Positions 3,594 through 22,877 of a DNA stretch of 64,000 nt are shown here, one piece after another (within the stretch, counting starts at the first letter, position 1; every line of letters starts with the position of its first letter). The position numbers and the translations under genes were made by a program. This stretch comes from Polynucleobacter sinensis. GTDB lineage: Bacteria; Pseudomonadota; Gammaproteobacteria; Burkholderiales; Burkholderiaceae. The DNA lies in assembly GCF_001595985.1 (NCBI RefSeq), contig NZ_LOJJ01000008.1, positions 1-64,000 of the forward strand. Reading direction: 5' to 3'. A model generated the notes under the pieces. The model was given only the letters and a program-made list of their open reading frames with translations. It did no database searches and was not told the DNA's origin.

Positions 3594-3995
3594 TTAATGC
3601 TTAATGAGTCTAATTAATTCTAGAACAATTTTCTTCTGATCGGTAGTTAAGTTAAATACAAGCTTAAGCAATAATTCATCAGGTTCAGATAATCCATCGC
3701 CACTCTTCTTATTGTCCTCGCATAAGTGAGGGCTCCCATTATTACTCGAGCATAGAACCTCATTAAAATCCAGTTGCAACCATTCGACCAAAATTCTTAG
3801 CCTATCTTCCTCTGGTATCGATACTCCTCGCATCCATCTTCTCGCGCTTTCCTGTGTGATGGGTTCAATACCATGTGCGCGAAGATTAAAATCTCTTGCA
3901 AGGGCAGACGCTGTTGGGACTTTTCCATAGCGCGCATGCAAACATTTTCTTAAGGATTGGGAAAAATGATCCTTTATTTCAATTGTTTTTCTCAT
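3594..3995 (-). CDS. Small XRE-like HTH protein, paralogue of the one at 16704-17105
   Basis: 133 residues. The N-terminal 80 residues resemble a lambda-repressor-like helix-turn-helix: ALARDFNLRA, then ITQESARRWMRG, then a third helix before VEWLQLDFNEVL. The C-terminal part is a predicted helix (LLLKLVFNLTTDQKKIVLELIRLI). A second protein in this island has the same blueprint (FNLRA...ITPETARRWLNG...LSEWLEIDLNTLL), so the two form a paralogous pair. An FNR-like box at 4098-4111 with a -10-like TACGAT lies upstream. Target genes are unknown. It may be a regulator or a DNA-binding accessory protein of the low-oxygen programme. Confidence 0.75.
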   Translation of the reverse strand: MRKTIEIKDHFSQSLRKCLHARYGKVPTASALARDFNLRAHGIEPITQESARRWMRGVSIPEEDRLRILVEWLQLDFNEVLCSSNNGSPHLCEDNKKSGDGLSEPDELLLKLVFNLTTDQKKIVLELIRLIKH

Positions 3996-4070
3996 CTAAA
4001 TAAAAAATAGTCAAAAGAGGAAGTTAGTGCAATTGGTATCGCTACAGTTGCTAGAAATATATATGGATTA

Positions 4071-4111
4071 ATCGTACAGATCTAAGTAGGTTATTTATTG
4101 ACAAAAATCAG
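4071..4111 (-). promoter_or_regulatory. FNR-like box and -10 for the small HTH gene at 3594-3995
   Basis: TTGAC-AAAA-ATCAG at 4098-4111 matches the FNR palindrome TTGAT-N4-ATCAA with one difference per half. On the minus strand a TACGAT hexamer (4076-4071) starts 28.5 bp from the palindrome centre, the class II FNR spacing. Confidence 0.55.
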
Positions 4112-4159
4112 AAATAGGGCAAGACTCACTAAATATTTAAGGGAATGTATTTTTAATAT

Positions 4160-4486
4160 TTATGAAAAATGCTCAAGGGCATCGCTAATGAAGTCGGCTG
4201 AACTAATCTCACCATCTTTGGTATGTTGTTTAAAGTATTGAGAGTAAAAACTAGCAACTAATGTCCGTCCATCAAAGTCCATGCAAGATTTCCCCAACTT
4301 TCTTCTAAACCAATCTATGTGGCCACAAATGATATCCATATCATCTTCTAAAATTGCATTATTTAAGCTTTGAATAAATAAATCATCGCCTTCATCTTTG
4401 AGACTTTCTAAGCCGAGGACTATGTCATCAGGCGTACTGCAAGTGACACCACCAATTTTTCGGATTGCGGCTAATTTAGTTTCCAT
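4160..4486 (-). CDS. Hypothetical 108-residue soluble protein, FNR-controlled
   Basis: I do not recognise this family. The protein is acidic, soluble and mostly predicted helical, with no signal peptide or membrane segment and three Cys (VTCSTPDD, DIICGHIDWF, KSCMDF). The middle reads DDLFIQSLNNAILEDDMDIICGHIDW. It is transcribed away from the phasin gene. The FNR box at 4560-4573 lies between the two starts, and a minus-strand TAGCAT (4538-4533) has the expected spacing, so both genes are probably induced together at low oxygen. Confidence 0.65.
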   Translation of the reverse strand: METKLAAIRKIGGVTCSTPDDIVLGLESLKDEGDDLFIQSLNNAILEDDMDIICGHIDWFRRKLGKSCMDFDGRTLVASFYSQYFKQHTKDGEISSADFISDALEHFS

Positions 4487-4532
4487 ATCTCATATCTCAT
4501 CTGCTGTAACGAATAAGTCATCCCAGTTTTCC

Positions 4533-4600
4533 ATGCTATTGATGCGTGAAAAGAATTAATTGACTTATATCAAAAATTTGTTTTACCTCGAAGATACGAT
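4533..4600. promoter_or_regulatory. Divergent FNR promoter between 4160-4486 and the phasin gene
   Basis: TTGAC-TTAT-ATCAA at 4560-4573 differs from the FNR consensus at one base. On the plus strand TACGAT (4595-4600) and on the minus strand TAGCAT (4538-4533) both start 28.5 bp from the centre of the palindrome, so one box can serve two class II promoters. Confidence 0.7.
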
Positions 4601-4625
4601 TAACCCTCAATAACAGGAGGGAATA

Positions 4626-5222
4626 ATGGGAATAAATCAATTAAATGAAAAGTTAGAAAAAATTCAAAGCTCTAACATGAAGAGCTCTAAGGCGTTAAGT
4701 GAAATGACGGTTGAGGGGGCTAAAAAGCTTACGCAAGTACATGCCTCTCTAGCAAACCATGTGGCCAAAAATATGCAATTAGCGGCAGCCAATCTCATGA
4801 CGGCAAATAGTCCTGAAGAGGCTTGGAATGTGATAAAGGGGGATGGGGGCGCCCCTTTTATTGAGGGATGGCAAGAGTATCAGAAATCTGTTGTCAGTAC
4901 GATTGAGCGTTACTTGGAGGATTATTCAGAGGCAAATGAGGAGATTTATGAACATACGAAGGGGGGTGTAAATGAATTCTTTAAGTTGGCCTGCCAAAAT
5001 GCTCCAGATGGTATGGATGTACTTATCAAACCCTATCAGTCTGCGATTAATGTTGCCCTAGAAGGCGCAGATCAAATGCATGTGTTACTTAAAAACTATG
5101 TTCATAACTTAGAGAGCAGTATTGCTGGTGGCGGTATCTTTGGAAGAATGACGGATTTAATACCGCAAGGGCCACTTCATAAATACTCAAAACGATCTAA
5201 AGGCGTTAGTAAGTCGCTGTAA
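4626..5222 (+). CDS. Phasin family protein (polyhydroxyalkanoate granule-associated)
   Basis: 198 residues, helical and amphipathic, with the phasin layout: KALSEMTVEGAKKLTQVHASLANHVAKNMQLAAANLMTA, then an aromatic-containing helix (PFIEGWQEYQKSVVSTIERYLEDYSEANEEIYE). Phasins coat PHB granules, so the gene suggests carbon storage during oxygen limitation. AGGAGGG lies just before the start ATG. The FNR box at 4560-4573 with TACGAT lies upstream. No PHA synthase is present in the window. The C-terminal SKRSKGVSKSL tail is basic, which could allow DNA or granule contact (inference). Confidence 0.82.
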   Translation: MGINQLNEKLEKIQSSNMKSSKALSEMTVEGAKKLTQVHASLANHVAKNMQLAAANLMTANSPEEAWNVIKGDGGAPFIEGWQEYQKSVVSTIERYLEDYSEANEEIYEHTKGGVNEFFKLACQNAPDGMDVLIKPYQSAINVALEGADQMHVLLKNYVHNLESSIAGGGIFGRMTDLIPQGPLHKYSKRSKGVSKSL

Positions 5223-5265
5223 TGGTGCATTGAGATTGATAACGTGTTAAATCTAAGATTGATTC

Positions 5266-5306
5266 GGGGCAATATCGGCTGATATTTAACATCACTGTAT
5301 TGCCCC
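5266..5306. terminator. Stem-loop between convergent phasin and nitroreductase genes
   Basis: GGGGCAATA (5266-5274) pairs with TATTGCCCC (5298-5306) across a 23-base loop. It lies between convergent genes but has no clear T run, so it is a weak terminator candidate. Confidence 0.35.
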
Positions 5307-5316
5307 ATCCATATTG

Positions 5317-5943
5317 CTAGGGGGTGCCATTCTCCAAAGGAAGAGATTTCCAAGAGAGAATTTCCACTGGTTTGCGAGGTACTTGAGGGCCAATATGAGT
5401 TGGCTTGCCTAAGATAACGGGGGCGATAATCTCAACTTCTTCTGGGATGCTTAACTCGCGCTTCCATTGTGGTGTATTGATAATCTCAACGGCAAACCCA
5501 ATCACACAACTTCCCAACCCATGTGCATAGGCTGCTAGCATGAGATTTTGCGCAGCGAGCCAGCAATCCGCTTGAACAAATTGACCTTGCAACTTACTGC
5601 AAATTAAGGCTAAGGTGGTGGAATTATAAAATATATTAAATTCAGGATTCCGAACGAGTTCCAATGCGTGCCTTGAAAATAAGTTCTGCTCAGTTTTTTT
5701 TGAAAGAATGTGCTGCTTAGCATCTTGCGAAATCCGATGGAGTAATCCCGAATCTTGAATTACAGAAAAGACACAGGGTTCTTCATGCATGGCCGTAGGT
5801 GCTTGTACTGCGGCATTAAATAACGTTGTGAGCAATTCTGAATCTACGATCTCATCAGTGAAGTCGCGCACTGAAATTCTTGAATAAATTGCTTCCATGA
5901 TGGTGATGGGGTTAACCCCCACCACATCATTGAATATTTTCAT
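5317..5943 (-). CDS. Nitroreductase family protein (FMN-dependent)
   Basis: 208 residues. MEAIYSRISVRDFTDEIVD near residue 16 is the usual RRSVR-type FMN phosphate-binding start of the family. PTAMHEEPCVFSVIQD and the later LAAQNLMLAAYAHGLGSCVIG (dimer and flavin-contact helix) follow, then VEIIAPVILGKP. The start lies 11 bp downstream of the BON gene at 5955-6605, so the two form an operon under the tandem FNR sites at 6698-6743. The substrate is unknown; family members reduce nitro compounds, quinones or enones with NAD(P)H. A more diverged paralogue lies at 9111-9698. Confidence 0.85.
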   Translation of the reverse strand: MKIFNDVVGVNPITIMEAIYSRISVRDFTDEIVDSELLTTLFNAAVQAPTAMHEEPCVFSVIQDSGLLHRISQDAKQHILSKKTEQNLFSRHALELVRNPEFNIFYNSTTLALICSKLQGQFVQADCWLAAQNLMLAAYAHGLGSCVIGFAVEIINTPQWKRELSIPEEVEIIAPVILGKPTHIGPQVPRKPVEILSWKSLPLENGTP

Positions 5944-5954
5944 CTTGAAATTCC

Positions 5955-6605
5955 TTAGGCAAAAGAAGTGTTGTCGATCACTTTTTTAACGCCTGGGATA
6001 GCCCAAACAGCATCAATAGCGAGTGATTTTTCTTTCCAATCATGGATTTTTCCACCTAAGGTAACTTCGTCACCATGAACGTTGACTGTAATCTCCTGAG
6101 CTTCATCGTGTGCACGACGTTTTAAGGCTTTTTCGATGTCGATCTTCACAGTCGTTACTGAAATTGCTGGTTTTAGACTGATAAAGTTATATACCCCCCT
6201 AACACCAGTTAAATATCGAACAGAGTTTTCAGCAGAAATTCGCTCAAAATTCCAAGGGACTTGACCTGTCAAGGTAATGTAGCCATCCTCAACTTTGATT
6301 GAGACGGAATCGGCTAGTTTGTAAACATTCCACTTGAGGGCATCCATTGCTGCCTTAGCAATCTCAGTGTCACTTTTCTTACTTGAGCCTGGTAATACGA
6401 CATCTAATTCAACGGCGATCACTTTGACTCCCGCAACGCGTTTTGCAGCCTCTTCAGCATTCCACTTTTCAGCAAAACTATCAACATGGCCTGATAGTGT
6501 CACCACGCCATTTTTTACTTCCACCCCTATGTGTGCAGCATTAACTTTTGGCTCCCACTTGAGTTCAGCCATTACATCCTGTTGAATTTGAATATCTGTT
6601 TTCAT
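5955..6605 (-). CDS. Triple-BON-domain protein (OsmY-like), copy 1
   Basis: 216 residues containing three BON domains of about 65 residues each: IQIQQDVMAELKWEP...GVVTLSGHVDS, then SDTEIAKAAMDALKW...GYITLTGQV, then KIDIEKALKRRA...DEVTLGGKIHDW. BON domains bind phospholipid or envelope surfaces. Unlike OsmY, no signal peptide is visible (it begins MKTDIQIQQDVMAEL), so a cytoplasmic or membrane-surface role is possible. Two close paralogues (7500-8165 and 9771-10421) lie nearby. It is the first gene of an operon with the nitroreductase, and tandem FNR sites lie upstream. Confidence 0.9.
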   Translation of the reverse strand: MKTDIQIQQDVMAELKWEPKVNAAHIGVEVKNGVVTLSGHVDSFAEKWNAEEAAKRVAGVKVIAVELDVVLPGSSKKSDTEIAKAAMDALKWNVYKLADSVSIKVEDGYITLTGQVPWNFERISAENSVRYLTGVRGVYNFISLKPAISVTTVKIDIEKALKRRAHDEAQEITVNVHGDEVTLGGKIHDWKEKSLAIDAVWAIPGVKKVIDNTSFA

Positions 6606-6670
6606 TTTCTTCCTCTATGTCTTTAAATTGCTTTCCAAGTCTTTGATTACCAATTTTGCTTCTGATGAAA

Positions 6671-6743
6671 AATATAAGCACTCTTTAAATTTCAATTTTG
6701 AGGAATGTCAAAATTTCTGTAGTTAAAAATTGATCAGAATCAA
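6671..6743 (-). promoter_or_regulatory. Tandem FNR boxes upstream of the BON copy 1/nitroreductase operon
   Basis: A perfect box TTGAT-CAGA-ATCAA (6730-6743) and a weaker one, TTGAG-GAAT-GTCAA (6698-6711), are 32 bp apart centre to centre, about three helical turns. A minus-strand TATATT (6676-6671) begins 28.5 bp from the centre of the weaker box. The strong site could therefore act as an upstream second activator site. Confidence 0.65.
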
Positions 6744-6751
6744 TTAAATAT

Positions 6752-7489
6752 TTAGCTGATGGTGGAATCAACATCTCTGATTTTTTCAACTTTTAGTTCC
6801 CGCTGAAATGGCTCCGCAATAAGATCGATAGGCGGATCTAGGGAGATAATCTCACTAGCCTTTTTGATGCTAGCTTCAAGCCATGAATGTAGATGTAGAT
6901 CAGGAATAATAATGGGCATTCTTTTTGCATCCCCGGGCTTATGAAAGCGACGTAATAAGGGATGGATGCTCGCATCTCTAGTCAAGATGCAAAACGAAAT
7001 AATGTCTTCACCCATTGCAACATCAGTCCATCTTTCCCAAAGACAGGCTAATGCAAAGGGGCTACCATCTTTTTTATGGACTCTCCAGCGAACTGCAGAG
7101 CCAGTTTCGTAGTTAGGTTGCATAAAGCTATCAACAATTACTAGTGCAAAATGCCTGTGGCTCCATGCAACTCGAAAACTGGGTTTTGAGCTAACAGTTT
7201 CACTTCGAGCGTTATAAGTTTCTCTATGAAAATCAAGTGTATGATTTGCCGTCATTGACTCGCTTTTCACGTTGTAAGTGTGTCTATTCGCCTTAGCCCC
7301 CTTAGCCCATGACGGTATAAGACCAAAATGGGCTAGACTGCATTTATATTGGCCAGAATCAAATGCGGCGCGGATAATAGGGCAGTAGTAGCTAGGGTAT
7401 ATTTCTTCGCGAAATTTCTTAGGTAGAGAGACTGAAAATTGCTTTTCTACCCATATACGATTTTGAGTGGGAATAAAATTGAGACACAT
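6752..7489 (-). CDS. SRAP (HMCES/YedK) family protein with altered active site
   Basis: SRAP proteins cross-link to abasic sites in single-stranded DNA through Cys2. Seen here: MCLNF at the start (Cys2 kept), FGLIPSWAKG, YNARSETV (Asn kept), and FHKPGDAKRMPIII near the end (His kept). In the motif where relatives usually have FYEPNYE, this protein reads SFMQPNYETG, so the catalytic Glu appears to be Gln. A segment before it looks tandemly duplicated: HTYNVKSESMTA followed about 20 residues later by ETYNARSETVSS. The gene starts 10 bp after BON copy 2, in the same operon. Activity may be reduced or altered. Confidence 0.82.
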   Translation of the reverse strand: MCLNFIPTQNRIWVEKQFSVSLPKKFREEIYPSYYCPIIRAAFDSGQYKCSLAHFGLIPSWAKGAKANRHTYNVKSESMTANHTLDFHRETYNARSETVSSKPSFRVAWSHRHFALVIVDSFMQPNYETGSAVRWRVHKKDGSPFALACLWERWTDVAMGEDIISFCILTRDASIHPLLRRFHKPGDAKRMPIIIPDLHLHSWLEASIKKASEIISLDPPIDLIAEPFQRELKVEKIRDVDSTIS

Positions 7490-7499
7490 ACTATATTAG

Positions 7500-8165
7500 C
7501 TAGTAGCCCACCTGAAGATGGTCAATCACATTTTTGACTGTGGGGATTGACCAAGCTGCATTAATTGCCGAGTTTCTTTCCGACCAACTTTTGACTTTTC
7601 CAGCAATGGTCACGATATTTTGATCGATCGTAATATCTAATTTCTGCGCTTGATCAATAGCCTGACGTGCGAGGGCATTTTGAATATCTTGCTTGATGAT
7701 TGGACCACTCAATTTTGGCTCAACTTCAATTAAATTACATACGCCCGTTACCCCTAGCATATTAGAGGCGTAGCTTTGAGCCAAATCTTTCTGATGAAAG
7801 GCTTCCACTTTTCCACTCAAGGTTATAAAGCCTTGTTCTACTTTGACATGAATTTGTTCATGAGGATCAATACTGCTCCAAGCGATAATGCTTTGCATTT
7901 GGCGAGCAATTTCAGTATCACTCCGCGTAGACGATCCCGGCAATAAAACTTTAATTTCTTGAGCAATTGCTCGAACACCCCGTACACGCTTTGCCGCTTT
8001 TTCAGCATTGATTTTTTCAGAGTAACTTTCGACGTATCCTGAAAGCGTAACAACACCTTCGGCTACCTCCACCCCAATATGGGAAGCCTTGATTTTGGGA
8101 TCCCAACGAATTTCAGCAAGGACATCAGCCTGAATTTCAATATCATCTCTCATGTTGTATTGCAC
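7500..8165 (-). CDS. Triple-BON-domain protein, copy 2
   Basis: 221 residues with three BON domains: IEIQADVLAEIRWDPKIKASHIGVEV...GVVTLSGYVESY, then SDTEIARQMQSIIAW...FITLSGKVEAF, then IKQDIQNALARQA...IVTIAGKVKSW. It is the most divergent of the three paralogues, mainly in its second domain. No signal sequence is visible. It sits between a 51-residue protein gene (2 bp gap) and the SRAP gene (10 bp gap), forming a three-gene operon behind the perfect FNR box at 8385-8398. Confidence 0.9.
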   Translation of the reverse strand: MQYNMRDDIEIQADVLAEIRWDPKIKASHIGVEVAEGVVTLSGYVESYSEKINAEKAAKRVRGVRAIAQEIKVLLPGSSTRSDTEIARQMQSIIAWSSIDPHEQIHVKVEQGFITLSGKVEAFHQKDLAQSYASNMLGVTGVCNLIEVEPKLSGPIIKQDIQNALARQAIDQAQKLDITIDQNIVTIAGKVKSWSERNSAINAAWSIPTVKNVIDHLQVGY

Positions 8166-8167
8166 TC

Positions 8168-8323
8168 CTAATTGACAACATGTTTTTGGGTTCGTTTATC
8201 GCGATTTTTCTTAATGGCTCTATCCATAGCCTCTTGCCAAATAAGGCGATCCCATAATTTGGGATCCATATCTTTGCAATTATTTGATTCTTTGGAATAG
8301 CTACTAGATACCTTCTTATTCAT
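8168..8323 (-). CDS. Small 51-residue hypothetical protein, first gene of a BON-SRAP operon
   Basis: The start at ATG 8323 is preferred because AGGGGATCTT lies just before it; longer in-frame starts overlap the promoter. The protein is charged, with the core DPKLWDRLIWQEAMDRAIKKNRDKRT, and is probably one long helix. I recognise no family. Its stop is 2 bp before BON copy 2, and the FNR box centre lies about 69 bp upstream of its start, as for other genes here. Confidence 0.6.
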   Translation of the reverse strand: MNKKVSSSYSKESNNCKDMDPKLWDRLIWQEAMDRAIKKNRDKRTQKHVVN

Positions 8324-8357
8324 AAGATCCCCTATCGGTGTGTTAGCTCTTGAAATC

Positions 8358-8425
8358 AATGTAATCAGTCTGAACATATTTTTTTTGATTTTTATCAAGA
8401 TTAAGATTTAAGTTCATCTTATAAA
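8358..8425. promoter_or_regulatory. Divergent FNR promoter with a perfect palindrome
   Basis: TTGAT-TTTT-ATCAA at 8385-8398 is a perfect FNR consensus. TATAAA (8420-8425, plus strand) and TACATT (8363-8358, minus strand) both begin 28.5 bp from its centre, so the box can drive the BON/SRAP operon leftward and the exported-protein operon rightward. Confidence 0.75.
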
Positions 8426-8480
8426 TTAAACATGAGAGAACCCGTCTCACACGATCAACTATCTATAGATGGAGAAAAAA

Positions 8481-8909
8481 ATGAATCAATTTATTATTAA
8501 ATCCTTTTTTACATCACTAGCTTTAATTTTTGGTATGCACTATTGCTATGCTCAATTACCTGAAATTGAGAGTCGCAGCAATCTCTCATGCATGATGGGC
8601 GGGGTGGGGGAGGACGAATCTAAGGCTATGCGCGAAGAGGCTAAGAAGTGGCCTCTCAATATTGAATTTTCAGAGCATGTTGGTAAATCAGATTTATGGG
8701 TTTCTGGGGCGACACTCACCATTATTAATAAATCAGGAAATACTATTTTTGAAGAGACCTGCAATGGACCTCTGTTCTTAGCAAAGCTAGCTCCTGGAAA
8801 GTATCAGTTAATTGCTACATATCAAGGCGTTACTCAGAAAAAGACTATCGAAATTCGAGAGGGAAAGTCACTTAAAGCGTCCTTTAATTGGAAAGGAAAA
8901 GCAGCATGA
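8481..8909 (+). CDS. Exported hypothetical protein with a carboxypeptidase-like beta-sandwich
   Basis: ATG 8481 is preferred (GGAG at about 8470 upstream; an in-frame ATG at 8469 is possible). Residues 1-24 form a signal peptide ending HYCYA before QLPE. The mature part contains WVSGATLTIINKSGNTIFEETCNGPLFLAKLAPGKYQLIATYQG, the pattern of small envelope proteins with a carboxypeptidase-regulatory-like fold. Two Cys (LSCMMGG and ETCNGP) could form a disulphide. The stop overlaps the next start (ATGA), so it is translationally coupled to the small membrane protein downstream. It lies under the FNR box at 8385-8398. Confidence 0.75.
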   Translation: MNQFIIKSFFTSLALIFGMHYCYAQLPEIESRSNLSCMMGGVGEDESKAMREEAKKWPLNIEFSEHVGKSDLWVSGATLTIINKSGNTIFEETCNGPLFLAKLAPGKYQLIATYQGVTQKKTIEIREGKSLKASFNWKGKAA

Positions 8910-9130
8910 GTCTATCAAAGATGCATGCTCAGAGATATAACGTAGGTCATCTTGATCGACTATTAAGAATCCTCGTTGGTATTGATTTGATGGGTTTAGC
9001 AGATATGCATTGGATTGACTTTTGGGGGTGGGTGGGTGTTATCCCATTATTGACTGGGATCTTGCGCTATTGCCCCCTCTACGCTTTACTTCATATCAAT
9101 ACCTATAGGGATGCTGGCTATGTTAAGTGA
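8906..9130 (+). CDS. DUF2892/YgaP-transmembrane-like small membrane protein
   Basis: The start at ATG 8906 overlaps the previous stop (ATGA). 74 residues. After a short N-terminus (MHAQRYNVGHLDRLLRILVGI), two hydrophobic helices follow (IDLMGLADMHWIDFWGWVGVIPLLTGILRYCPLYALLHI), matching the DUF2892 pattern of YgaP-like membrane segments, including the terminal CPLY motif. In other bacteria such segments accompany rhodanese or inner-membrane stress proteins. The gene downstream overlaps its end. Confidence 0.75.
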   Translation: MSLSKMHAQRYNVGHLDRLLRILVGIDLMGLADMHWIDFWGWVGVIPLLTGILRYCPLYALLHINTYRDAGYVK

Positions 9131-9698
9131 GTTTAACTATGGCGGTCCAGTGATGCAGGCAATTGTAAATCGACGAAATAATTACCATTTCTCAAATCAT
9201 CCAGTAAGCAGATCATCAATAGAAACCTTGCTTGAGTCTGGTATGAGAGTTTCTCTAAAAAATGAAGCTGATCGATGGTCATTTGTCGTGATACAGGATG
9301 AGGATTATGTGCGATATCTTAGAGAATACAGTGCTTTACTAAATATATTGGATGGTAAATATAACAGTGCTACACAAAAGATCGTTGCTCAAGATGCCTC
9401 GCTTAATAGTGGTGGTGCAGGATCACTCATTCTGGTTTGCGCTAATTTAGCGATGCCATTTTCTCTTGATCATTGTTGGCTTGCCGTGGAAAACATGCTA
9501 TTGACTGGGAGCGCTTTAGGTTTTGGCATTTCATTGGACGGATCCCTATTAAAAGTATTGAACTTATCCATGATTAAGAGCGAATTAAATATGCCAGAGG
9601 AGTTGACAGTTTTGGCGGCGATGATGGTAGGCGAGCCAGAGAATCCCATTTTGCCAGTAAATAATTACTCTCCCAAAGTGTGGAAGTGGTTAAGTTGA
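9111..9698 (+). CDS. Diverged nitroreductase-like protein
   Basis: 195 residues (alternative start ATG 9120). Paralogous to the nitroreductase at 5317-5943: MQAIVNRRNNYHF matches MEAIYSRISVRDF, HCWLAVENMLLTGSALGFGISL matches DCWLAAQNLMLAAYAHGLGSCVIG, and MPEELTVLAAMMVGEPENP matches IPEEVEIIAPVILGKP. The Arg-rich FMN-binding start has been rewritten (RRNNYHF instead of SxRxF) and a loop near residues 35-45 is shortened, so flavin binding may be changed. It overlaps the end of the DUF2892 gene and completes a three-gene operon. A terminator hairpin follows. Confidence 0.75.
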   Translation: MLAMLSEFNYGGPVMQAIVNRRNNYHFSNHPVSRSSIETLLESGMRVSLKNEADRWSFVVIQDEDYVRYLREYSALLNILDGKYNSATQKIVAQDASLNSGGAGSLILVCANLAMPFSLDHCWLAVENMLLTGSALGFGISLDGSLLKVLNLSMIKSELNMPEELTVLAAMMVGEPENPILPVNNYSPKVWKWLS

Positions 9699-9727
9699 AG
9701 CTAAGATTAGTGAGCTAGATTATCTTC

Positions 9728-9758
9728 AGAAGGTTTAAATTTATAATTTAAACCTTCT
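9728..9758. terminator. Bidirectional terminator hairpin
   Basis: A perfect 13-bp inverted repeat: AGAAGGTTTAAAT (9728-9740), a 5-base loop, then ATTTAAACCTTCT (9746-9758) followed by ATTTTTC. It separates the converging nitroreductase-like and BON copy 3 genes. Confidence 0.75.
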
Positions 9759-9770
9759 ATTTTTCACTTG

Positions 9771-16586: not shown

Positions 16587-16703
16587 ATTCTTTGATTTCC
16601 TTTGCAAGCTATCAAGTAATGCTGGAATTGATAGGCAAAGGCTATATGAATTTCTTACCTTATTTGATGCATGATGTGTGAAATATTTAATTAACAGCAC
16701 ACG

Positions 16704-17105
16704 CTATGTGCTATTAATTGTTTTAATTTTTTTGATAATCACCTCGAGTTCATTGGTAATGCCATGTAGCGAATGAATTACTTTTTCGCTGGAATGAATA
16801 AATTCCTGCATTTCTTTATGAGTTAAATCTAATTCGCCATTTTCGGATACTTTGCGAATAGATAAAAGAGTATTAAGATCAATTTCTAGCCATTCGCTTA
16901 AGGCAACTAACTTTTCCATATCAGGAAGTACATGGCCGTTAAGCCATCTTCGAGCAGTTTCAGGGGTAATAGTGCATGTATTCTTTGCGCGCAGATTAAA
17001 TTCTTTGGCAATGAATCCTGAGGAGGGTACCTTCCGATATTTCGATAGCAAACCAACTCTCAAGACCTGAGAAAAAACAATAGCTATGTTCCGATTTTTT
17101 CTCAT
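16704..17105 (-). CDS. Small XRE-like HTH protein, second copy
   Basis: 133 residues with the same organisation as the protein at 3594-3995: MRKxxxI start, YRKVPSSGFIAKEFNLRAKNTCTITPETARRWLNG and SEWLEIDLNTLL, then a different helical C-terminus (MQEFIHSSEKVIHSLHGITNELEVIIKKIKTI). The shared N-terminal half suggests the same DNA target class with different C-terminal partners. It lies between the FNR gene and the alanine-rich protein gene; no clear FNR box is visible before it. Confidence 0.75.
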   Translation of the reverse strand: MRKNRNIAIVFSQVLRVGLLSKYRKVPSSGFIAKEFNLRAKNTCTITPETARRWLNGHVLPDMEKLVALSEWLEIDLNTLLSIRKVSENGELDLTHKEMQEFIHSSEKVIHSLHGITNELEVIIKKIKTINST

Positions 17106-17130
17106 ACCTAGGATATCGGCTTCTGAATAT

Positions 17131-17607
17131 TTATTTAGATTTTGCTTGTCGTATGGATTCTGAGGCAGTTAGCGATAGTTTGACGGCGTCTGATGCCGCC
17201 TCTGTTGCCCTCTTGGTTGCTTCGGCTGCCAGCGCTGCAGCAGATATAGAAGAATTTTTTTTATGTTGAGATGCCGCTAAAGATGCGGCAGCAGACGCGG
17301 CAGCAGCGGCAGACGCGGCCTCAATAGCTGCTTCTGCCGAAGCGGCGGCTGATTCTGCTGCTAGTTCTGCGGCAATAATAAGCTCTTTGTTTGCTGCTTC
17401 TTTGGCTGATTGAGAAGCAAATTTCGCCGCCACCGCTGATTTAATTGCGCTACTTGCCGATTTTTTGGCAGCCTCAGAAGCATTTGAAGTGAGGTCTTCA
17501 AGTGTTACCAAAACATTGCTATATCTGCTATCAATCGTGGAGTAAGTCTTTTGGAGCTGGCTAACCTCTATTTCGAGTTTGGCGATCTTTTTTAGAATGT
17601 CATTCAT
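17131..17607 (-). CDS. Alanine-rich coiled-coil protein
   Basis: 158 residues. After a short coiled-coil start (MNDILKKIAKLEIEVSQLQKTY) comes a long Ala/Ser-rich helix (SAAASAEAAIEAASAAAAASAA and similar) and a basic end. The composition resembles phasin-like or structural helical proteins that coat surfaces, but it has no recognised domain. The DNA is not a simple repeat because codons vary. It lies 37 bp downstream of the AMP-forming ligase gene, so it may end that operon. Confidence 0.6.
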   Translation of the reverse strand: MNDILKKIAKLEIEVSQLQKTYSTIDSRYSNVLVTLEDLTSNASEAAKKSASSAIKSAVAAKFASQSAKEAANKELIIAAELAAESAAASAEAAIEAASAAAAASAAASLAASQHKKNSSISAAALAAEATKRATEAASDAVKLSLTASESIRQAKSK

Positions 17608-17644
17608 GGCACGATGATTTTATCTTGATTTAACTGAGGCTATT

Positions 17645-19030
17645 TTAATATTGGGGGGGGAATATATCAATTTTTCCTGAATTATTAACAGAATTTTGAG
17701 CTATTGAGGAGCGTAATACAAGTAGATTAATGCTATTTTTAAATACTAAAAGTTGCTCAATACAATATCGAATATTCTGAAATTGCTGCTCCGTAGGGTG
17801 GGAGGTATTTGAGAAGTGGACATATAAATACTGATTGCCACCCTTTGTCATAGTTTCGTTTTGCGAAATGGTGGCATTAAATATTCCATGATCTTCAATG
17901 AGCGCAATGATCGCTAGGGCTGGTATTTTGACTTGTTCACCGTTTATATTTATGAATTTTAGGTGCTGAACAGCTCTTCCAGCAAGCTCAATATGAGGTA
18001 GCAAAGAGCCACACAGACACTTTGTCGGACTGTAGCAAATTTGATCGCCTAAATCATAACGAATAATTGGCTGAGCTTTATTTACCAAATTGGTTAGTAG
18101 GCTGGTGTGAGAGAGCTTGCCGGCTGGTAATGGCAAGTAGTTTTCATCAACCGCCTCTAATAGTGCCCAATCAGAATTCACGTGCAAGCTTCCTTGATGG
18201 CATTGCCAGGCTATTGGTAAAAACTCCGAGGCGCCATAGCTGCAATAGATTTTTGTCTGCAGTGCCCCCTCAATATAATTACGTTGTTTTGTGCTGAGAT
18301 GCTCCCCACCTAGCCAGAGCTCTCGAGGGTGAAGATCGGTGGAGGCGTAGTCTGCAAGACATATGGCCATGGATGGATAAGTGATAATGACTGATGGATC
18401 ATAGTTTGTTAGTTTGGAGACCAATTGTTCAATTGGCTCAAAAATTGAAAAGTCCCTAATAGACTTTTTAAGACTTGAGAAATCTTCTTTTAAAATGGCC
18501 AAAGAGACAGTGCTGGCGTAGTGTTGGTCTAAAACACCAATATAGGCAATGCGCTCTTGGCCCAATATTAGACGGGTGTATTGAGTGAACATTGCCTCAA
18601 TTGGCTTTCGCATTGCCTCAATTGCTTGATATCGACTTATGCAGCTCCTATCCTGAATATATATTCCTTGCAGGCCATTGGTGCCTGAGCTTTCCCATAT
18701 GTAGTACCGATTCTTAAATGGTTTACCGATATTGGTAGGTGAGGAAGTGAATTCTTGAATGTCGGCCAGTCGTATTTCTTGATTAGTGACCAATTGATCA
18801 AAGTGACTCATCATTTCGGCTTTATTGCTTATGGGAAAGCAATTAAAGGGGGCGTGACTGGAAATAGATTTTTTGAATTTCCTTTGATAAAAAGGGGAGG
18901 CGTTGGAGGCGTATTCCACCATCCTCCGTAATCGTAAATGAGCTATTTCATTCAGATAGCCAGGAAATACAGCTGCGTTGGTATCTGTGGCCCAAATCTC
19001 ATAAACATCTCTAAAGAATGATGGGTTCAC
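17645..19030 (-). CDS. PaaK/CapK-like AMP-forming ligase
   Basis: 461 residues. The acyl-adenylate motifs are visible: P-loop-like YYIWESSGTNGLQGIYI near residue 109, YGASEF near 248 (aromatic-Gly-x-x-Glu), and RYDLGDQI near 322. A Cys pair (KCLCGSLLPHIELAGR) matches the zinc or structural loop of phenylacetate-CoA ligase relatives. The family activates a carboxylic acid with ATP, usually to a CoA thioester. The substrate is unknown. It starts 5 bp after the small membrane protein gene at 19036-19314, behind the shared FNR box at 19376-19389. Confidence 0.78.
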   Translation of the reverse strand: MNPSFFRDVYEIWATDTNAAVFPGYLNEIAHLRLRRMVEYASNASPFYQRKFKKSISSHAPFNCFPISNKAEMMSHFDQLVTNQEIRLADIQEFTSSPTNIGKPFKNRYYIWESSGTNGLQGIYIQDRSCISRYQAIEAMRKPIEAMFTQYTRLILGQERIAYIGVLDQHYASTVSLAILKEDFSSLKKSIRDFSIFEPIEQLVSKLTNYDPSVIITYPSMAICLADYASTDLHPRELWLGGEHLSTKQRNYIEGALQTKIYCSYGASEFLPIAWQCHQGSLHVNSDWALLEAVDENYLPLPAGKLSHTSLLTNLVNKAQPIIRYDLGDQICYSPTKCLCGSLLPHIELAGRAVQHLKFININGEQVKIPALAIIALIEDHGIFNATISQNETMTKGGNQYLYVHFSNTSHPTEQQFQNIRYCIEQLLVFKNSINLLVLRSSIAQNSVNNSGKIDIFPPQY

Positions 19031-19035
19031 AAAAC

Positions 19036-19314
19036 TCAGTCAGCATTATTTTCCACCAGAGTATTAAATAGTTTTGACAATACATAACCCAAAACTGCTC
19101 CAACGGAAACTGTCAGAGCTAGTAGGATCAGAGCCCTTCCCATATCGAATGACTGAACCTCAAAGATAGGTTTTATAAAGTGCGCCCAATAGATAAAGTC
19201 TAAAAATACTTGAGCATATTTGAGATAAACCAAGATAAGCCAACTTAAGTGGATAACTCCAAACAACATTCCAAGTAATAGTGCAGCGTCTATTGAATTA
19301 ATTGAATTTTTCAT
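19036..19314 (-). CDS. Small two-helix membrane protein (DUF5676-like)
   Basis: 92 residues with two hydrophobic helices (AALLLGMLFGVIHLSWLILVYL and MGRALILLALTVSVGAVLGYVLSKLFNTLV) joined by an aromatic segment (FLDFIYWAHFIKP). The pattern resembles DUF5676 proteins, from memory and without an alignment. First gene of the leftward operon with the AMP-forming ligase; the FNR box centre lies 68 bp upstream. Confidence 0.6.
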   Translation of the reverse strand: MKNSINSIDAALLLGMLFGVIHLSWLILVYLKYAQVFLDFIYWAHFIKPIFEVQSFDMGRALILLALTVSVGAVLGYVLSKLFNTLVENNAD

Positions 19315-19348
19315 GGCCTATTTCCTAGCTCGTATGTGCATCTTGGCA

Positions 19349-19416
19349 ATTTTTATTTGAACTTCAAAATTAAAATTGACAAATATCAATATAGATTCAA
19401 ATTTAATTTTTACTAT
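19349..19416. promoter_or_regulatory. Divergent FNR promoter, cfa and membrane/ligase operon
   Basis: TTGAC-AAAT-ATCAA (19376-19389) has one mismatch. TACTAT (19411-19416, plus) and AAAAAT (19354-19349, minus) each start 28.5 bp from the centre. Confidence 0.7.
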
Positions 19417-19448
19417 TAAGAAATGGCAACTGATCTTGGATCCAAATC

Positions 19449-20597
19449 ATGCTTAAAAAATTAGAGATTGAAAAATACCGTATTCCTACGATCATTCAAG
19501 AAATATTCAATAGCGTTGGTATTGTCATCAATGGATCGAATCCATGGGATATTCAGATTCTGAATGAAAGAGCATTCAATTTAATTCTGAGTAAATGGTC
19601 TTTGGGTTTGGGTGAAGGCTATATGAGGGGATACTGGGATTGTCTTGATCTGGAGGGATTCTTATACCGACTACTCAAGCATGACCATAATGAAAAGATT
19701 CGTGGTTTCGCTAATTTCAACCTGTTATATGAGGTTATGCGAGCAAAGCTGCTCAATTTGCAATCAAAATCACGTGCTTTTATGGTGGGCCAGCATCATT
19801 ACGACGTAGGTCAAGATGTCTTCGCAGCGATGCTTGATAAGGAAATGATGTACTCATGTGCTTATTGGGAGCACGCTCATGATCTAGATAAAGCGCAACT
19901 CGATAAGATGGAATTAATTTGCAGAAAGTTGCAGCTTAAAGCTGGAGAATCTTTACTTGAAATTGGATGCGGCTGGGGTGGCTTTGCTCGTTATGCGGCT
20001 CAAAATTATGGTGTTAGGGTTTTGGGGGTCACCATATCTCAAGAGCAATATCGCATTGCCAAACAGAAGTGTGGAGGTGAAAATGTCGAAATCTTATTAA
20101 GCGATTATCGAGATCTTGAGGGTCAGTTTGATAAGATTGTATCAATTGGTATGTTTGAACATGTAGGTGAAAAAAATTACCAAAAATATTTCTCTGTAGC
20201 CTCTAGGCTACTTGCTGATAATGGAATTTTTTTACTTCATACCATTGGTAGTGATGTGACTACCTTACGAACGGATCCTTGGATTGAGAAATATATCTTC
20301 CCTAATGGCAAGATACCCTCTATAGGCGAGATCGGCATCGCTAGTGAGGGTCATTTTATAGTGGAAGATTTACAAAATATTGGTCTTGATTATGAAAAGA
20401 CTTTATTAGCATGGCACCAAAAATTTATTTCTAGTTGGCCATCCTTATCTTACAAATATGACTCTGTTTTCTATCGTATGTGGATTTATTATCTGCTAGG
20501 TTGTGCAGCCTATTTCAAATCCAGGCAAGGGCAACTGTGGCAGTTAGTATTTACAAAACGAAATTTTTCAGGAGTTTATAGATCAATTCGGATGTGA
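19449..20597 (+). CDS. cfa: Cyclopropane-fatty-acyl-phospholipid synthase
   Basis: 382 residues, the usual length of the E. coli-type enzyme. It transfers the S-adenosylmethionine methylene to cis double bonds of membrane lipids, making them more stable. SAM-binding LLEIGCGWGGFARYAA lies near residue 173, with GVTISQEQ and SIGMFEHVG following. The N-terminal lipid-binding part contains GEGYMRGYWDC, and HYDVGQDVF leads into the catalytic domain. It has its own class II FNR-like promoter, which fits membrane hardening under oxygen limitation or stationary phase. Confidence 0.95.
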   Translation: MLKKLEIEKYRIPTIIQEIFNSVGIVINGSNPWDIQILNERAFNLILSKWSLGLGEGYMRGYWDCLDLEGFLYRLLKHDHNEKIRGFANFNLLYEVMRAKLLNLQSKSRAFMVGQHHYDVGQDVFAAMLDKEMMYSCAYWEHAHDLDKAQLDKMELICRKLQLKAGESLLEIGCGWGGFARYAAQNYGVRVLGVTISQEQYRIAKQKCGGENVEILLSDYRDLEGQFDKIVSIGMFEHVGEKNYQKYFSVASRLLADNGIFLLHTIGSDVTTLRTDPWIEKYIFPNGKIPSIGEIGIASEGHFIVEDLQNIGLDYEKTLLAWHQKFISSWPSLSYKYDSVFYRMWIYYLLGCAAYFKSRQGQLWQLVFTKRNFSGVYRSIRM

Positions 20598-20620
20598 GGA
20601 TGATTGGATATCTTTTGTAG

Positions 20621-21028
20621 TTATTTCACTTGTAGACGGTTAATGTATTCAATCAGCAAAAGAATCCGGCCACGAGAGTACAGCTCTGAGTTATAAGGCA
20701 CACCAAGATAGATGTCTGGTGCTTCTTGCTTATATGTCTTTCCCCAGGCTGGCATATCGCTTGGACCATGAACTTTAATGTCTTCCCCAGAGATGCTTTG
20801 ATAAATACGGTCAATTGGCAAAATTCCATCATTTTTCTTGGCTAGGGTTGTGAGGTTCGTGGGTTGGACATTTAAGAAGAAAGAAAGCCAACCATTACCT
20901 TTGCCGTCCTTACCATGGCAGCTAGCACACCTAGATTCAAATTCCTGCTTTCCAAAATCTACTGTGTTTGCTAAGACATTCTGTATTGATATAAAAATTA
21001 GCACACTTGCCATCGCAATTTTCTTCAT
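20621..21028 (-). CDS. Periplasmic class I cytochrome c
   Basis: 135 residues. Signal peptide MKKIAMASVLIFISIQNVLA, then the haem-binding motif CASCHGKDGKGNG (Cys-X2-Cys-His) near residue 34. The axial Met is probably in SDMPAWGKTY. It could feed electrons to a high-affinity oxidase or another periplasmic reductase at low oxygen (inference); no oxidase gene is nearby. An FNR-like site at 21097-21110 precedes it. Confidence 0.85.
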   Translation of the reverse strand: MKKIAMASVLIFISIQNVLANTVDFGKQEFESRCASCHGKDGKGNGWLSFFLNVQPTNLTTLAKKNDGILPIDRIYQSISGEDIKVHGPSDMPAWGKTYKQEAPDIYLGVPYNSELYSRGRILLLIEYINRLQVK

Positions 21029-21069
21029 AAAAACCTCACCTTAAGAATTAGATTACTCAATACTGCTTA

Positions 21070-21110
21070 ATTGTTTTAGAGTTAGTTTTAAAAAAAATGA
21101 TTAATATCAA
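21070..21110 (-). promoter_or_regulatory. FNR-like site upstream of the cytochrome c gene
   Basis: ATGAT-TAAT-ATCAA (21097-21110) has one mismatch. The minus-strand hexamer AACAAT (21075-21070) is 28.5 bp from the centre. Confidence 0.55.
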
Positions 21111-21216
21111 AATAAGCCCTAACAGTTCTCCTCACCTTTTAAATTATTGTTTTAAACAGCATTATTTATAAGGAGTAAAAATATTACGATTTACATTTGA
21201 TTAGCGCACTTAAAAA

Positions 21217-21257
21217 TTGATAAATCGCAAATTTAAAAGAAGACATTAGCATTACAA
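21217..21257 (+). promoter_or_regulatory. FNR-like site upstream of the host-attachment-family gene
   Basis: TTGAT-AAAT-CGCAA (21217-21230) has two mismatches in one half. TTACAA (21252-21257) has the standard spacing. This predicts an untranslated leader of about 170 bases before the preferred start at 21436; I see no other feature in that leader. Confidence 0.45.
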
Positions 21258-21435
21258 ATGAACTTCTTGTTTCTTAGTGATTGGAAATTTATCTTGAAGT
21301 CAATTGTTTACATGAATGATATTTCACAATGCATTCAGTCAATTAAAGCTAAACACCTGCTTATCAATTACAAGCATTCTATTGCAGACTGTAAATACTC
21401 AATTTCTGATTTGTATTCGGATATCTGAGGATTCT

Positions 21436-21891
21436 ATGAGTGCATTTAGTAGTGGGGATCTTTATATCGTTGTAGATGGACACCATTTTATTTTTTTGGC
21501 AAAAGATAAGATTCCCTTAGTCGATCATTTAATCGCCTTTAAAAAAGTGGACTACGATCCCGCAACGTATGCAACCAAGAAACGCGCTGATCCGGGGCGC
21601 ACTTTCAACAGGATTGCTGGTGCCAGGTCTTCTTACGCATTTGCCGAGCCATCCAAAAAAAGTGATGTTAACTATTTAAGAGAGGCCTGTAAGACAATTG
21701 ATGAAGAATTTAAGCGTGGAAAGTTTTCGAGAATCATATTAATTGGCGATTTTGAAATACTCGCTATGATGAAAAAAAGCATGTCAAAAAATATGCTCAC
21801 AAAAGTATTTCATGAGATCTATAAAAACTATTCAAAAATGCCGATTGAGAGATTAGAGAGGCATCTGCGTTCTCTAGAGGGCGCTCATTAA
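21436..21891 (+). CDS. Host-attachment-family protein (AtsE/baeRF-like)
   Basis: ATG 21436 is chosen (GAGG just upstream; alignable residues begin at SGDLYIVVDGHHFIFLA). 151 residues. RADPGRTFNRIAGARSSYAF, then a helix (FKRGKFSRIILIGDFEILAMMKKSMSKNMLTKVFHEIYKNYSKMPIERLERHL), match the family once called protein required for attachment to host cells. That fold is release-factor-like; its molecular role is unsettled. The stop codon overlaps the next start (TAATG). Confidence 0.75.
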   Translation: MSAFSSGDLYIVVDGHHFIFLAKDKIPLVDHLIAFKKVDYDPATYATKKRADPGRTFNRIAGARSSYAFAEPSKKSDVNYLREACKTIDEEFKRGKFSRIILIGDFEILAMMKKSMSKNMLTKVFHEIYKNYSKMPIERLERHLRSLEGAH

Positions 21892-22058
21892 TGATTGGTA
21901 AATTTTTACGACTTTTTAATTATGATGAGTTTGATTTATTGAATTTAGTTGATGTCATGTCGGCAAATGCACTCCAGAGGCTCATGTCGATTGGATCAGT
22001 GTTGGATTGCTTCTTTCCTTTCTATTGCTTCTATCTGCTATTTTTAGCGAAGGATTAA
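21891..22058 (+). CDS. 55-residue small ORF, coupled to the attachment-family gene
   Basis: ATG 21891 overlaps the previous stop (TAATG). It encodes MIGKFLRLFNYDEFDLL and then NLVDVMSANALQRLMSIGSV, ending in an aromatic/Cys-rich hydrophobic segment (CFFPFYCFYLLFLAKD), perhaps a membrane anchor. The stop at 22056-22058 is 4 bp before the next gene. Tight coupling on both sides supports translation, but I recognise no family. Confidence 0.5.
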   Translation: MIGKFLRLFNYDEFDLLNLVDVMSANALQRLMSIGSVLDCFFPFYCFYLLFLAKD

Positions 22059-22062
22059 AGCG

Positions 22063-22278
22063 ATGAGAATTCGAATCACAAATGCTATTTTAGGTATTAG
22101 TGCAGGTGGAGTCATGGCTAAGGCGACCCCAATTGAATTTGATCCAGGGGAGTATTCGATTCACACGCACCCTTCTGGCCATCTTATTCTTGAATTGCCA
22201 GATCAAACAATTGGATTTATGAAATTTGATGATTTTGAGAACGGTGTTAATGCAGGATCAATCCTAATTCATGCCTAA
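22063..22278 (+). CDS. Small 71-residue hypothetical protein
   Basis: AAGGA lies 9 bp before ATG 22063. The protein starts MRIRITNAILGISAGGVMAK and has GEYSIHTHPSGHLILELPD, a beta-rich segment with two closely spaced His that might bind a metal (inference). Similar in size and opening to the protein at 14731-14952. Third gene of the 21436-22278 operon. Confidence 0.55.
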   Translation: MRIRITNAILGISAGGVMAKATPIEFDPGEYSIHTHPSGHLILELPDQTIGFMKFDDFENGVNAGSILIHA

Positions 22279-22289
22279 AGTGTAATTAA

Positions 22290-22330
22290 TTGACAATTCT
22301 CAAAATAAAAAAAGTAAAGTGATTTATAAA
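22290..22330 (+). promoter_or_regulatory. FNR-like box and -10 upstream of the tRNA-like element and DUF883 gene
   Basis: TTGAC-AATT-CTCAA (22290-22303) has one mismatch per half. TATAAA (22325-22330) begins 28.5 bp from the centre. The predicted transcript would start near 22338 and run through the tRNA-like sequence into the DUF883 gene. Confidence 0.55.
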
Positions 22331-22430
22331 CATCTTATGGAGCAAGATTAGTGATTCATTATGTAATGAGAGTACCAATTGAGTCCACTTTATCCCGATG
22401 GATAAGTAAATCGAGCCCCAGCTCTCATGA

Positions 22431-22500
22431 ATGGGCGTAGTTTAGTGGTAGAACAAAAGTCATTTTGGCATTTGCAGAGGTTCGATTCCTTTCGCCCATT
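22431..22500 (+). ncRNA. tRNA-like element (tRNA-Gly-like arms, degenerate anticodon arm)
   Basis: Acceptor strands ATGGGCG (22431-22437) and CGCCCAT (22493-22499) pair in all 7 positions. TA, the D arm GTTT-AGTGGTA-GAAC (22440-22454) and the T arm AGAGG-TTCGATT-CCTTT (22476-22492) follow normal tRNA order and resemble bacterial tRNA-Gly(UCC). The 21 bases left for the anticodon region are too few: the stem has a mismatch, position 33 is A instead of U, and the variable loop is 3 bases. CCA is not encoded (T then CAT). Either a tRNA pseudogene or a tRNA-like RNA with another role. Confidence 0.5.
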
Positions 22501-22565
22501 CATTTTTTATGATGTACTTATAAAAAATATTAATGAATATTTTCCTTATTAAATTCGAGATCAAG

Positions 22566-22877
22566 ATGCCAAATGAAAATCTTATTCAGATCCAACGGGA
22601 TCTTCAGCAACTAATGGAAAACGTACATCGCTTGATTGATGATTCAATTGGCGATGGTGCTAGCCAGGCAAAGAAAATTAGTAAAGAAGGAGCTGCTATG
22701 TTCGAAAATGTATTGGAGAAGTGCGCTTCAATCAAGGATGAGTGTATGGATTCCGGCAGAAATATGCTGTGCAAGGCTGAAAATTGTGTTCAGCATAAAC
22801 CTATATTATCTTTGGGTTTAGCTGCGCTAGTAGGTGGAATCATTGTTGCGGTGATATCTCGCCGTAGTCACCAATAG
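22566..22877 (+). CDS. DUF883 family membrane-anchored protein (ElaB/YqjD-like)
   Basis: ATG 22566 is preferred over 22533 because family members begin near LIQIQRDLQQLMENVHRLIDD. 103 residues: a helical soluble part, then a C-terminal membrane segment (PILSLGLAALVGGIIVAVISRR) ending in basic residues. ElaB/YqjD proteins are inner-membrane anchored and can associate with ribosomes in stationary phase. Three Cys in the linker (EKCASIKDEC, MLCKAENC) are unusual. It lies downstream of the FNR-like promoter at 22290 and the tRNA-like element. Confidence 0.8.
   Translation: MPNENLIQIQRDLQQLMENVHRLIDDSIGDGASQAKKISKEGAAMFENVLEKCASIKDECMDSGRNMLCKAENCVQHKPILSLGLAALVGGIIVAVISRRSHQ

Follow-up and report, generated by a model that had tools for sequence, protein, structure and literature searches.

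A predicted Fnr-controlled low-oxygen stress island of Polynucleobacter sinensis contains a structured RNA with a tRNA-like 3′ domain

Results

The window analysed here is a 64,000-nucleotide stretch of Polynucleobacter sinensis DNA, positions 1-64,000 of contig NZ_LOJJ01000008.1 (G000:C8:1-64000, where G000 is the genome itself, of 2.32 Mb). Positions 3594-22877 hold an island of about 30 genes with a gene for an Fnr-family regulator, Fnr-like palindromes in promoter regions and, near its right-hand end, a cassette (22290-22501) in which an Fnr-like site and a -10 box are followed by an RNA of ∼165 nt with a tRNA-Gly-like domain at its end. From the sequence, the segment is quite probably an accessory island for low-oxygen stress under the control of Fnr, one component of which would be a structured, trans-acting small RNA. 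A first-pass annotation had described these positions as a compact FNR-regulated survival island resembling the lxa locus of Burkholderia cenocepacia. Control by Fnr is upheld by the sequence and the likeness to lxa by the gene families, but the structured RNA had been missed, there being no mention of the tRNA-like element at 22431-22501.

The gene list given in that annotation was confirmed by open reading frames (ORFs) and Pfam matches, and the families named here are Pfam matches unless stated otherwise. The left half begins with a small helix-turn-helix (HTH)-like regulator, XREa (3594-3995, -; an ORF with no Pfam match), and u108, a protein without known family (4160-4486, -; ORF). They are followed by a phasin (4626-5222, +; PF09361), a nitroreductase (5317-5943, -), the first of three triple-BON proteins (BON1; 5955-6605, -), an SRAP-family protein (6752-7489, -), BON2 (7500-8165, -), a plus-strand group of the small protein CpD (ORF), a YgaP-like transmembrane protein and a second nitroreductase (8469-9698), and BON3 with s48 (9771-10586, -). 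A recurring module of a PRTase, an alpha/beta hydrolase and an erythromycin esterase-family protein (EreA) occupies 10829-13552 (+), and next to it lie a second PRTase and a universal stress protein (Usp; together 13549-14585, -), the small beta-rich protein s84 (14689-14952, +; homologue search and structure model), the small protein s60 (15025-15207, +; ORF), Hsp20 (15285-15761, -) and the Crp/Fnr-type regulator (15861-16700, -; also by structure-based alignment). The apparent operon of this regulator includes XREb, an Ala-rich protein, an adenylate-forming protein and s92 (16704-19314, -). The remaining genes encode cyclopropane-fatty-acid synthase (cfa; 19449-20597, +), a cytochrome c (20621-21028, -), a Host_attach/baeRF-family protein with s71 (21436-22278, +; s71 as an ORF) and, downstream of the RNA, an ElaB/YqjD-like small protein (22566-22877, +) with weak NCBIfam matches below cut-off.

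Fnr-like sites were defined by the pattern TTGATN4ATCAA, scored at 0, ≤1 or ≤2 mismatches. The exact palindrome occurs 22 times in the genome and three times in 3594-22877, versus 0.18 expected by length; at ≤1 mismatch there are 297 sites in the genome and 11 in the island, versus 2.5 expected, two of the 11 lying inside genes (at 7857 and 8812). The excess over the genome background expected of an Fnr-regulated island is therefore present. In an intergenic set of 20 segments of 3558-23331 (2,590 bp, 31% GC, with gene starts chosen by us) there are 3, 9 and 19 sites at 0, ≤1 and ≤2 mismatches, versus means of 0.02, 0.49 and 5.0 in dinucleotide shuffles of the same DNA, none of 500 of which reached the observed counts. 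With the half-site permuted in its 19 other ways, this set gave 0-2 sites at ≤1 mismatch; with the gap set to other lengths between 0 and 12, it gave 0-3. The earlier figure of 13 or more promoter-region palindromes thus holds at ≤2 mismatches but not at ≤1. Genome-wide, the palindrome outnumbers its reversed-pattern control about fivefold (297 versus 58). Two exact sites also lie 72 bp apart at 38588-38673, outside the island, and the window as a whole holds 5 of the 22 exact sites of the genome.

The score of a -10 hexamer was profiled at gaps of 5-44 nt for 24 hand-listed site-orientation pairs facing a gene. It peaks at a gap of 21 only (mean 6.33, versus 2.67-4.42 at the other gaps), with TAnnnT found there in 8 of the 24 pairs and in at most two at any other gap, and nAnnnT in 12 pairs and in at most six elsewhere. 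A palindrome centred near -41.5 is the geometry of a class II Fnr promoter, and the gap-21 peak indicates that island promoters have this arrangement. TAnnnT stands at gap 21 for XREa (a promoter candidate with the 2-mismatch site 4098-4111 and TACGAT), in both directions for phasin (+) and u108 (-), which share one site (4560-4573, 1 mismatch), for BON1 (6698-6711, 2 mismatches, TATATT), s51, s48 (10691-10704, 2 mismatches, upstream of BON3/s48), the PRTase-EreA operon (10757-10770, +, 1 mismatch, TAGCAT) and cfa (19376-19389, 1 mismatch, TACTAT). The s51/BON2 (-) and CpD (+) genes flank an exact site (8385-8398) with TATAAA at gap 21 on the plus strand for CpD, and similar hexamers at this gap belong to s60 (14957-14970, TATACA) and to the RNA (TTGACAATTCTCAA at 22290-22303, +, 2 mismatches, with TATAAA 21 nt on at 22325-22330, +). 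A weaker or no -10 match at gap 21 was found for Hsp20 (exact site 15842-15855, no TAnnnT at gaps 20-22), cytochrome c (21097-21110), Usp (14650-14663), s84, baeRF and the s92 operon (-), which faces cfa (+) across the site at 19376. A further exact site precedes BON1 (6730-6743).

The island Fnr, with the Met at 16586 chosen by us as its start, can be aligned over residues 9-234 to a solved FNR-type regulator (5cvr and relatives). All four cysteine ligands of the [4Fe-4S] cluster are present, CFQCISRHRC and a central NSDVC being aligned with those of the solved FNR, and the ETxSR recognition residues are retained (TVETLSR in the island protein, TVETISR in the solved FNR); the presence of an FNR regulator in the island, claimed earlier, is hence borne out. 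It is a divergent paralogue among the four Crp/Fnr-type proteins that its genome has above the family cut-off, with identities of 42, 36 and 22% to the copies on contigs C5, C18 and C1, respectively. Its best match in another genome of the genus is 43% identical (151 genomes searched), and a scan of a genome-contig collection returned no relatives. By coordinates, fnr is apparently the last gene of an operon, s92-ANL-Ala-rich-XREb-fnr, which starts at the Fnr-like site at 19376.

The left half of the island is collinear with one other genome of the genus, G145, where a locus on contig C2 (L243) has u108, phasin, nitroreductase, BON1, SRAP, BON2 and CpD in the same order, and other loci of the genus share subsets of genes, namely G112 (EreA, PRTase2, Usp, s84, CpD, Fnr), G109 (Cfa, s92, Ala-rich), G043 (Fnr, DUF883, CpD) and G022 (Fnr, Ala-rich, XRE, s92). 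The 14-mer before CpD is identical in G000 and G145, with TATAAA at the same spacing in both, and a single base separates the 6698 site before BON1 from its G145 counterpart. Nothing in G145 corresponds to the exact site at 6730, and the phasin-u108 regions align poorly, their sites not being aligned to each other. Fnr control of the island is strongly supported at the sequence level by the site excess, the class II geometry, the four-cysteine Fnr and the matching G145 sites before BON1 and CpD.

The RNA that follows the promoter at 22290 is predicted to start near 22337 and comprises a structured leader (22337-22430, +), for which the leader model and covariation indicate helices P1, P2 and P3 and a pseudoknot, and a tRNA-Gly-like 3′ domain (22431-22501, +), which both ARAGORN and Rfam call as a tRNA and which starts 128 nt after the Fnr-like site. 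None of 100 shuffles contains TTGAY-N5-TCAA followed after 21 nt by TATAAA, a pattern present twice in the window. Two loci that had been retrieved from other genomes because of their s84 or Fnr genes contain 'tRNAs' with Ile-AAT and Pro-AGG anticodons, which are not normally used by bacteria, and each of these is preceded by an Fnr site and a related leader. One such element, together with its promoter, served as a BLASTN query: G112 (the query itself), G008, G039, G148 and G109 gave full-length matches, and in G183 and G145 the match covered the tRNA-like part; the further short matches examined, in G019, G020 and G092, are true tRNA-Gly genes.

A full-length model (R1), trained with the window copy included, was used to scan 186 genomes of the genus (about 0.9-3.4 Mb each) with strict filters by which weak matches may be lost. 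Nine full-length copies above 118 bits, the window's among them, were found in eight genomes, the next best match having 59.9 bits, and the leader model added a copy in G046 that is cut by a contig end (43.9 bits). In a family sample of 398 genomes from 25 genera, part of this genus included, scores above 63 bits occur in this genus only; the best elsewhere is 62.2 bits, and the 13 full-length-model matches outside the genus that were re-scanned (up to 62.2 bits) are ordinary tRNA-Gly genes. Weak leader-model matches in G096, G043, G026, G132, G164 and G177 (19.6-27.8 bits) were not accepted, the first three having no Fnr site in place on inspection. Plasmid, phage and viral-contig searches, the last by a strict pattern, found no copy of the RNA. 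As to the window copy, a model built from seven other copies gives 72.7 bits (E 3e-19) at 22338-22501, and one limited to the leader and the first ∼10 tRNA-like bases (eight other copies, promoter excluded) gives 31.6 bits at 22337-22439 (E 1.2e-6 in the window and 4.3e-5 genome-wide, where it is the sole match at E≤0.1). Judged by these scores, the homology of the window copy is real but divergent.

An Fnr-like site (0-2 mismatches), a gap of 21 nt and then TATAAA (nine copies) or TATATT (one) precede all 10 copies, of which G008, G148, G109, G183 and G145a were found by a query containing the promoter, G145b and G046 first by models without it, and G112 and G039 from the loci fetched for s84 or Fnr genes, the window copy being given. 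The RNA lies 359-408 bp from an Fnr-family gene in G112, G008, G039 and G148, 3.9 kb away in G145b and 5.6 kb away in the window; such linkage was not seen or could not be determined in G109, G183, G145a and G046. The two copies in G145 (L242 8966-9134 and L243 9045-9214) each adjoin a u108 homologue.

Eight copies of the RNA were aligned by MAFFT. The consensus has 49 base pairs, 24 of which are changed on both sides. When the pseudoknot is added in a fixed register, 26 of 55 pairs are changed on both sides, versus 12.9±2.4 after shuffling (none of 500 as high), and 90.6% of cells are paired, versus 41-54% when slid. In the pseudoknot, the P2 loop is paired to the bases directly 5′ of the tRNA-like domain, through partners such as AAAGGG/CCCTTT, GAGAGT/ACTCTC and GAGAC/GTCTC, and ATGAGAGT/GCTCTCAT in the window. 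Exchanging partners between copies gives a poorer fit than that within each copy (permutation P 0.0017; 16 of 5,040 on a seven-row subset), and so does shuffling (summed score 103 for the true partners versus 77±5), although in G145a the best stretch found is a different one. The compensatory changes support an RNA structure, the conservation of which is well supported by the alignment.

The tRNA-like domain scores 45.4 bits with RF00005 (cut-off 29), the lowest of 38 tRNAs in the genome, and homologous elements in five loci scanned score 33.9-43.2 bits. In the window an A precedes the called anticodon, where U33 is invariant in tRNAs. ARAGORN calls the anticodon variously as Lys-TTT, Ile-AAT, Pro-AGG, '???' or not at all across the copies, and by reading, none of nine tRNA-like copies has an encoded CCA, which follows 25 of 25 scored plus-strand true tRNAs of the genome. 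With no U33, shifting anticodon calls and no CCA, the domain is unlikely to decode. The window element matches no Rfam family other than tRNA at gathering scores, and the elements of the five other loci, scanned to E 1, match tRNA, with one opposite-strand plastid-UTR (untranslated region) match at G109 (E 0.69), far below cut-off.

Several known RNA classes share parts of this design. FnrS and PhrS are Fnr/Anr-activated small RNAs made at low oxygen and, like the RNA proposed here, are driven by an Fnr/Anr promoter; they are not known to have a tRNA-like domain or a pseudoknotted leader. tmRNA likewise combines a pseudoknot with a tRNA-like domain, but the present RNA differs from it in having a complete cloverleaf at its 3′ end and no CCA, and no Rfam tmRNA match was found in the window or the five other loci. 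The bacterial Y RNA YrlA is described as modular, 90-150 nt long and endowed with a tRNA-like domain (PMC8394870). A Y RNA is closed by a 5′/3′ stem that holds Rsr/Ro60, whereas the tRNA-like part of the present RNA closes on itself as a 3′ module. A search of the nine RNA-carrying genomes for TROVE/Ro60 found no such gene (1 of 14 control genomes, Deinobacterium, was positive), and membership in the Y RNAs was rejected for lack of Ro60 in the carriers. A search of open-access literature found nothing relevant on an Fnr-linked tRNA-like RNA, on FNR in Polynucleobacter or on related topics.

Beyond the genus, triple-BON proteins (E≤1e-20) occur in 91 of 249 genomes of a family sample, G000 being the sole member of its genus among them. 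Twelve hand-picked loci of such proteins contain 44 Fnr-like sites (≤1 mismatch), versus 1.4 expected from composition, an expectation that understates the Fnr-site background, as the 297 sites against 58 for the reversed control show in G000. At least one site is present in 11 of the 12 loci, Hsp20 homologues in five and Fnr homologues (29-32% identity) in five. The EreA search covered the best 80 of 258 relatives, from many phyla (L075-L154), and found PRT1 in 61, the hydrolase in 40, Hsp20 in 13 and BON in seven of the 80 loci. Forty-nine of these 80 have no Fnr-like site at ≤1 mismatch, and all together have 70 sites versus 12.9 expected from composition, a fivefold excess as in the P. sinensis genome overall; because of this resemblance to the background, the module cannot by itself count as evidence for Fnr control. 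Loci that stand out are those of Herbaspirillum (L076, 8 sites versus 0.3 expected), Undibacterium (L080, 6 versus 0.9) and a betaproteobacterial metagenome-assembled genome (3 versus 0.05).

As a protein-gene island, judged by its gene families, the locus is lxa-like. The lxa locus has the FNR gene BCAM0287 inside it (PMC4505428) together with six USPs, an alpha-crystallin and a BON protein (PMC6127331, PMC9733578), so that clustered Usp, Hsp20 (alpha-crystallin) and BON genes with an internal FNR gene are common to both. It is linked there to anoxic persistence in Burkholderia cenocepacia and comprises ∼50 genes, versus ∼30 genes and one USP here, and the island differs from it in its three triple-BON proteins, the EreA/PRTase module, the small proteins of no family and the tRNA-like RNA; the lxa likeness proposed in the first-pass annotation extends to Usp, Hsp20, BON and the internal FNR. 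Judged by its protein genes, the island appears to belong, like lxa, to a widespread type of Fnr-wired stress cluster. The DosR dormancy regulon of Mycobacterium is controlled by the two-component system DosRS, not by Fnr. It resembles the island in its hypoxia-linked Usp and alpha-crystallin genes (PMC6127331).

Discussion

We propose that a fall in oxygen would lead the island Fnr, or a paralogue encoded elsewhere in the genome, to activate some dozen promoters together, with chaperone, membrane, granule, nitroreductase and Usp proteins as the output. One of these promoters would drive the ∼165-nt RNA, a pseudoknotted leader joined to a tRNA-Gly-like cloverleaf. The tRNA-like domain might recruit the tRNA-processing machinery, for an RNase P cut at the acceptor stem or for protection and protein binding, and the leader would be freed or stabilised by the cut or the protection. 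MALAT1, which has an RNase P-cut tRNA-like end, is analogous in logic. The RNA is most likely a trans-acting, Fnr-activated small RNA, the expression, processing and targets of which we infer. On balance, we also favour the view that it is the founding member of an undescribed RNA family, Fnr-activated and pseudoknotted with a non-decoding tRNA mimic at its end, and that a promoter-plus-RNA cassette has spread among low-oxygen islands of the genus.

Several observations weigh against these proposals. Copies are rare, in 9 of 186 genomes of the genus when the nine full-length copies and the cut one are counted, and among the nine full-length ones that of the window has diverged most (lowest R1 score), with a 2-mismatch Fnr site, a leader of 31.6 bits and several broken P2 pairs; the full-length model gives ordinary tRNA-Gly genes up to 59.2 bits, versus 72.7 for the window copy. 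The structural evidence is uneven, in that the pseudoknot is paired in 71% of cells in one fixed register and helix P1a in 81%, further pair types are weakly above shuffles (61 versus 55.4, with 18 of 500 as high), and four of the eight sequences in the alignment closely resemble one another. It also cannot be told which of the genome's four Crp/Fnr-type proteins uses the sites.

The tRNA-like RNA might instead be a cis-acting 5′ UTR that controls the translation or stability of the next small gene in the manner of a riboswitch. A same-strand ORF does lie within ∼70 nt 3′ of the RNA in six of nine full-length copies; a related ORF of ∼57 amino acids follows it in G112, G008, G039 and G148, the ElaB-like gene in the window and an s92 homologue in G109. 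However, the downstream genes are unrelated between genomes, and this variation argues for a trans-acting RNA. In G145a the next same-strand ORF (≥45 amino acids) is the phasin, ∼0.8 kb away and behind further Fnr-like sites, and the DUF883-like gene of G043 has an Fnr-type promoter with no match to the RNA model. A cis-acting leader is accordingly possible but doubtful. It is quite improbable that the tRNA-like element is a fossil fragment of tRNA-Gly left at an attachment site by integration of the island, with no RNA function. Islands often sit in tRNA genes, and the D-arm region of the G112 element equals true tRNA-Gly(CCC) genes of three genomes exactly over 22 nt, but a leader of ∼95 nt is conserved alongside with compensatory changes, an Fnr-like promoter stands before each of the 10 copies, and the element occurs in different gene contexts.

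Concerning the sites themselves, the palindromes could serve another Crp/Fnr-family regulator, whether DNR-like and NO-sensing or a paralogue, rather than oxygen sensing through the island protein. DNR, FixK and ANR use the same TTGAT half-site, and P. sinensis has four candidate proteins above the family cut-off; that the island protein has kept its Fe-S cysteines and ETxSR residues makes such an assignment unlikely. It is scarcely plausible that the locus is a stress island of protein-coding genes only, with a site excess that reflects AT-rich, horizontally acquired DNA. The GC content is indeed 35-43% in 2-kb steps, versus 41-50% in the remaining window, but dinucleotide shuffles, permuted half-sites and other gaps give no such excess, and composition leaves the fixed 21-nt spacing to the -10 hexamer unexplained. 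The shuffle controls and the spacing together refute an AT-rich origin as a full explanation.

With Fnr control of the island and a trans-acting RNA as the preferred reading, a loose resemblance to lxa becomes a concrete Fnr regulon with mapped candidate promoters in a small-genome bacterium, in which a structured RNA would tie oxygen sensing to tRNA mimicry. If the proposal is true, the tRNA mimic would act as the 3′ processing or effector module of a bacterial RNA under oxygen control. Should the RNA be made and processed as predicted, it would offer a compact system for the role of a non-decoding tRNA mimic in a bacterium with no detectable Ro60, and for why the tRNA-mimic module often adjoins Fnr genes.

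Some further features of the island genes are recorded here. A defence-system reading was dropped, PADLOC having returned weak PRTase matches and nothing more. Homologues of s84 occur in 12 of 151 genomes of the genus, its own included, and Fnr-like sites (0-1 mismatch) lie within 400 nt upstream in 6 of 11 of them (L053-L063), four having two sites. The s84 model (pLDDT 84) has weak SH3-like Foldseek matches (best E 0.17), which weakly suggest an SH3-like fold, and we claim no function for it; s71 (22063-22278) appears by eye to be a remote relative (18% identity). The adenylate-forming protein in the apparent fnr operon (17645-19030, 461 amino acids) has no Pfam match and is F390-synthetase-related by NCBIfam, below cut-off. 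XREa (3594-3995) and XREb (16704-17105) are two related small HTH-like regulators in one island; XREb has a weak likeness, far below cut-off, to phage RstR repressors, and a homologue adjoins Fnr, Ala-rich and s92 genes in L043.

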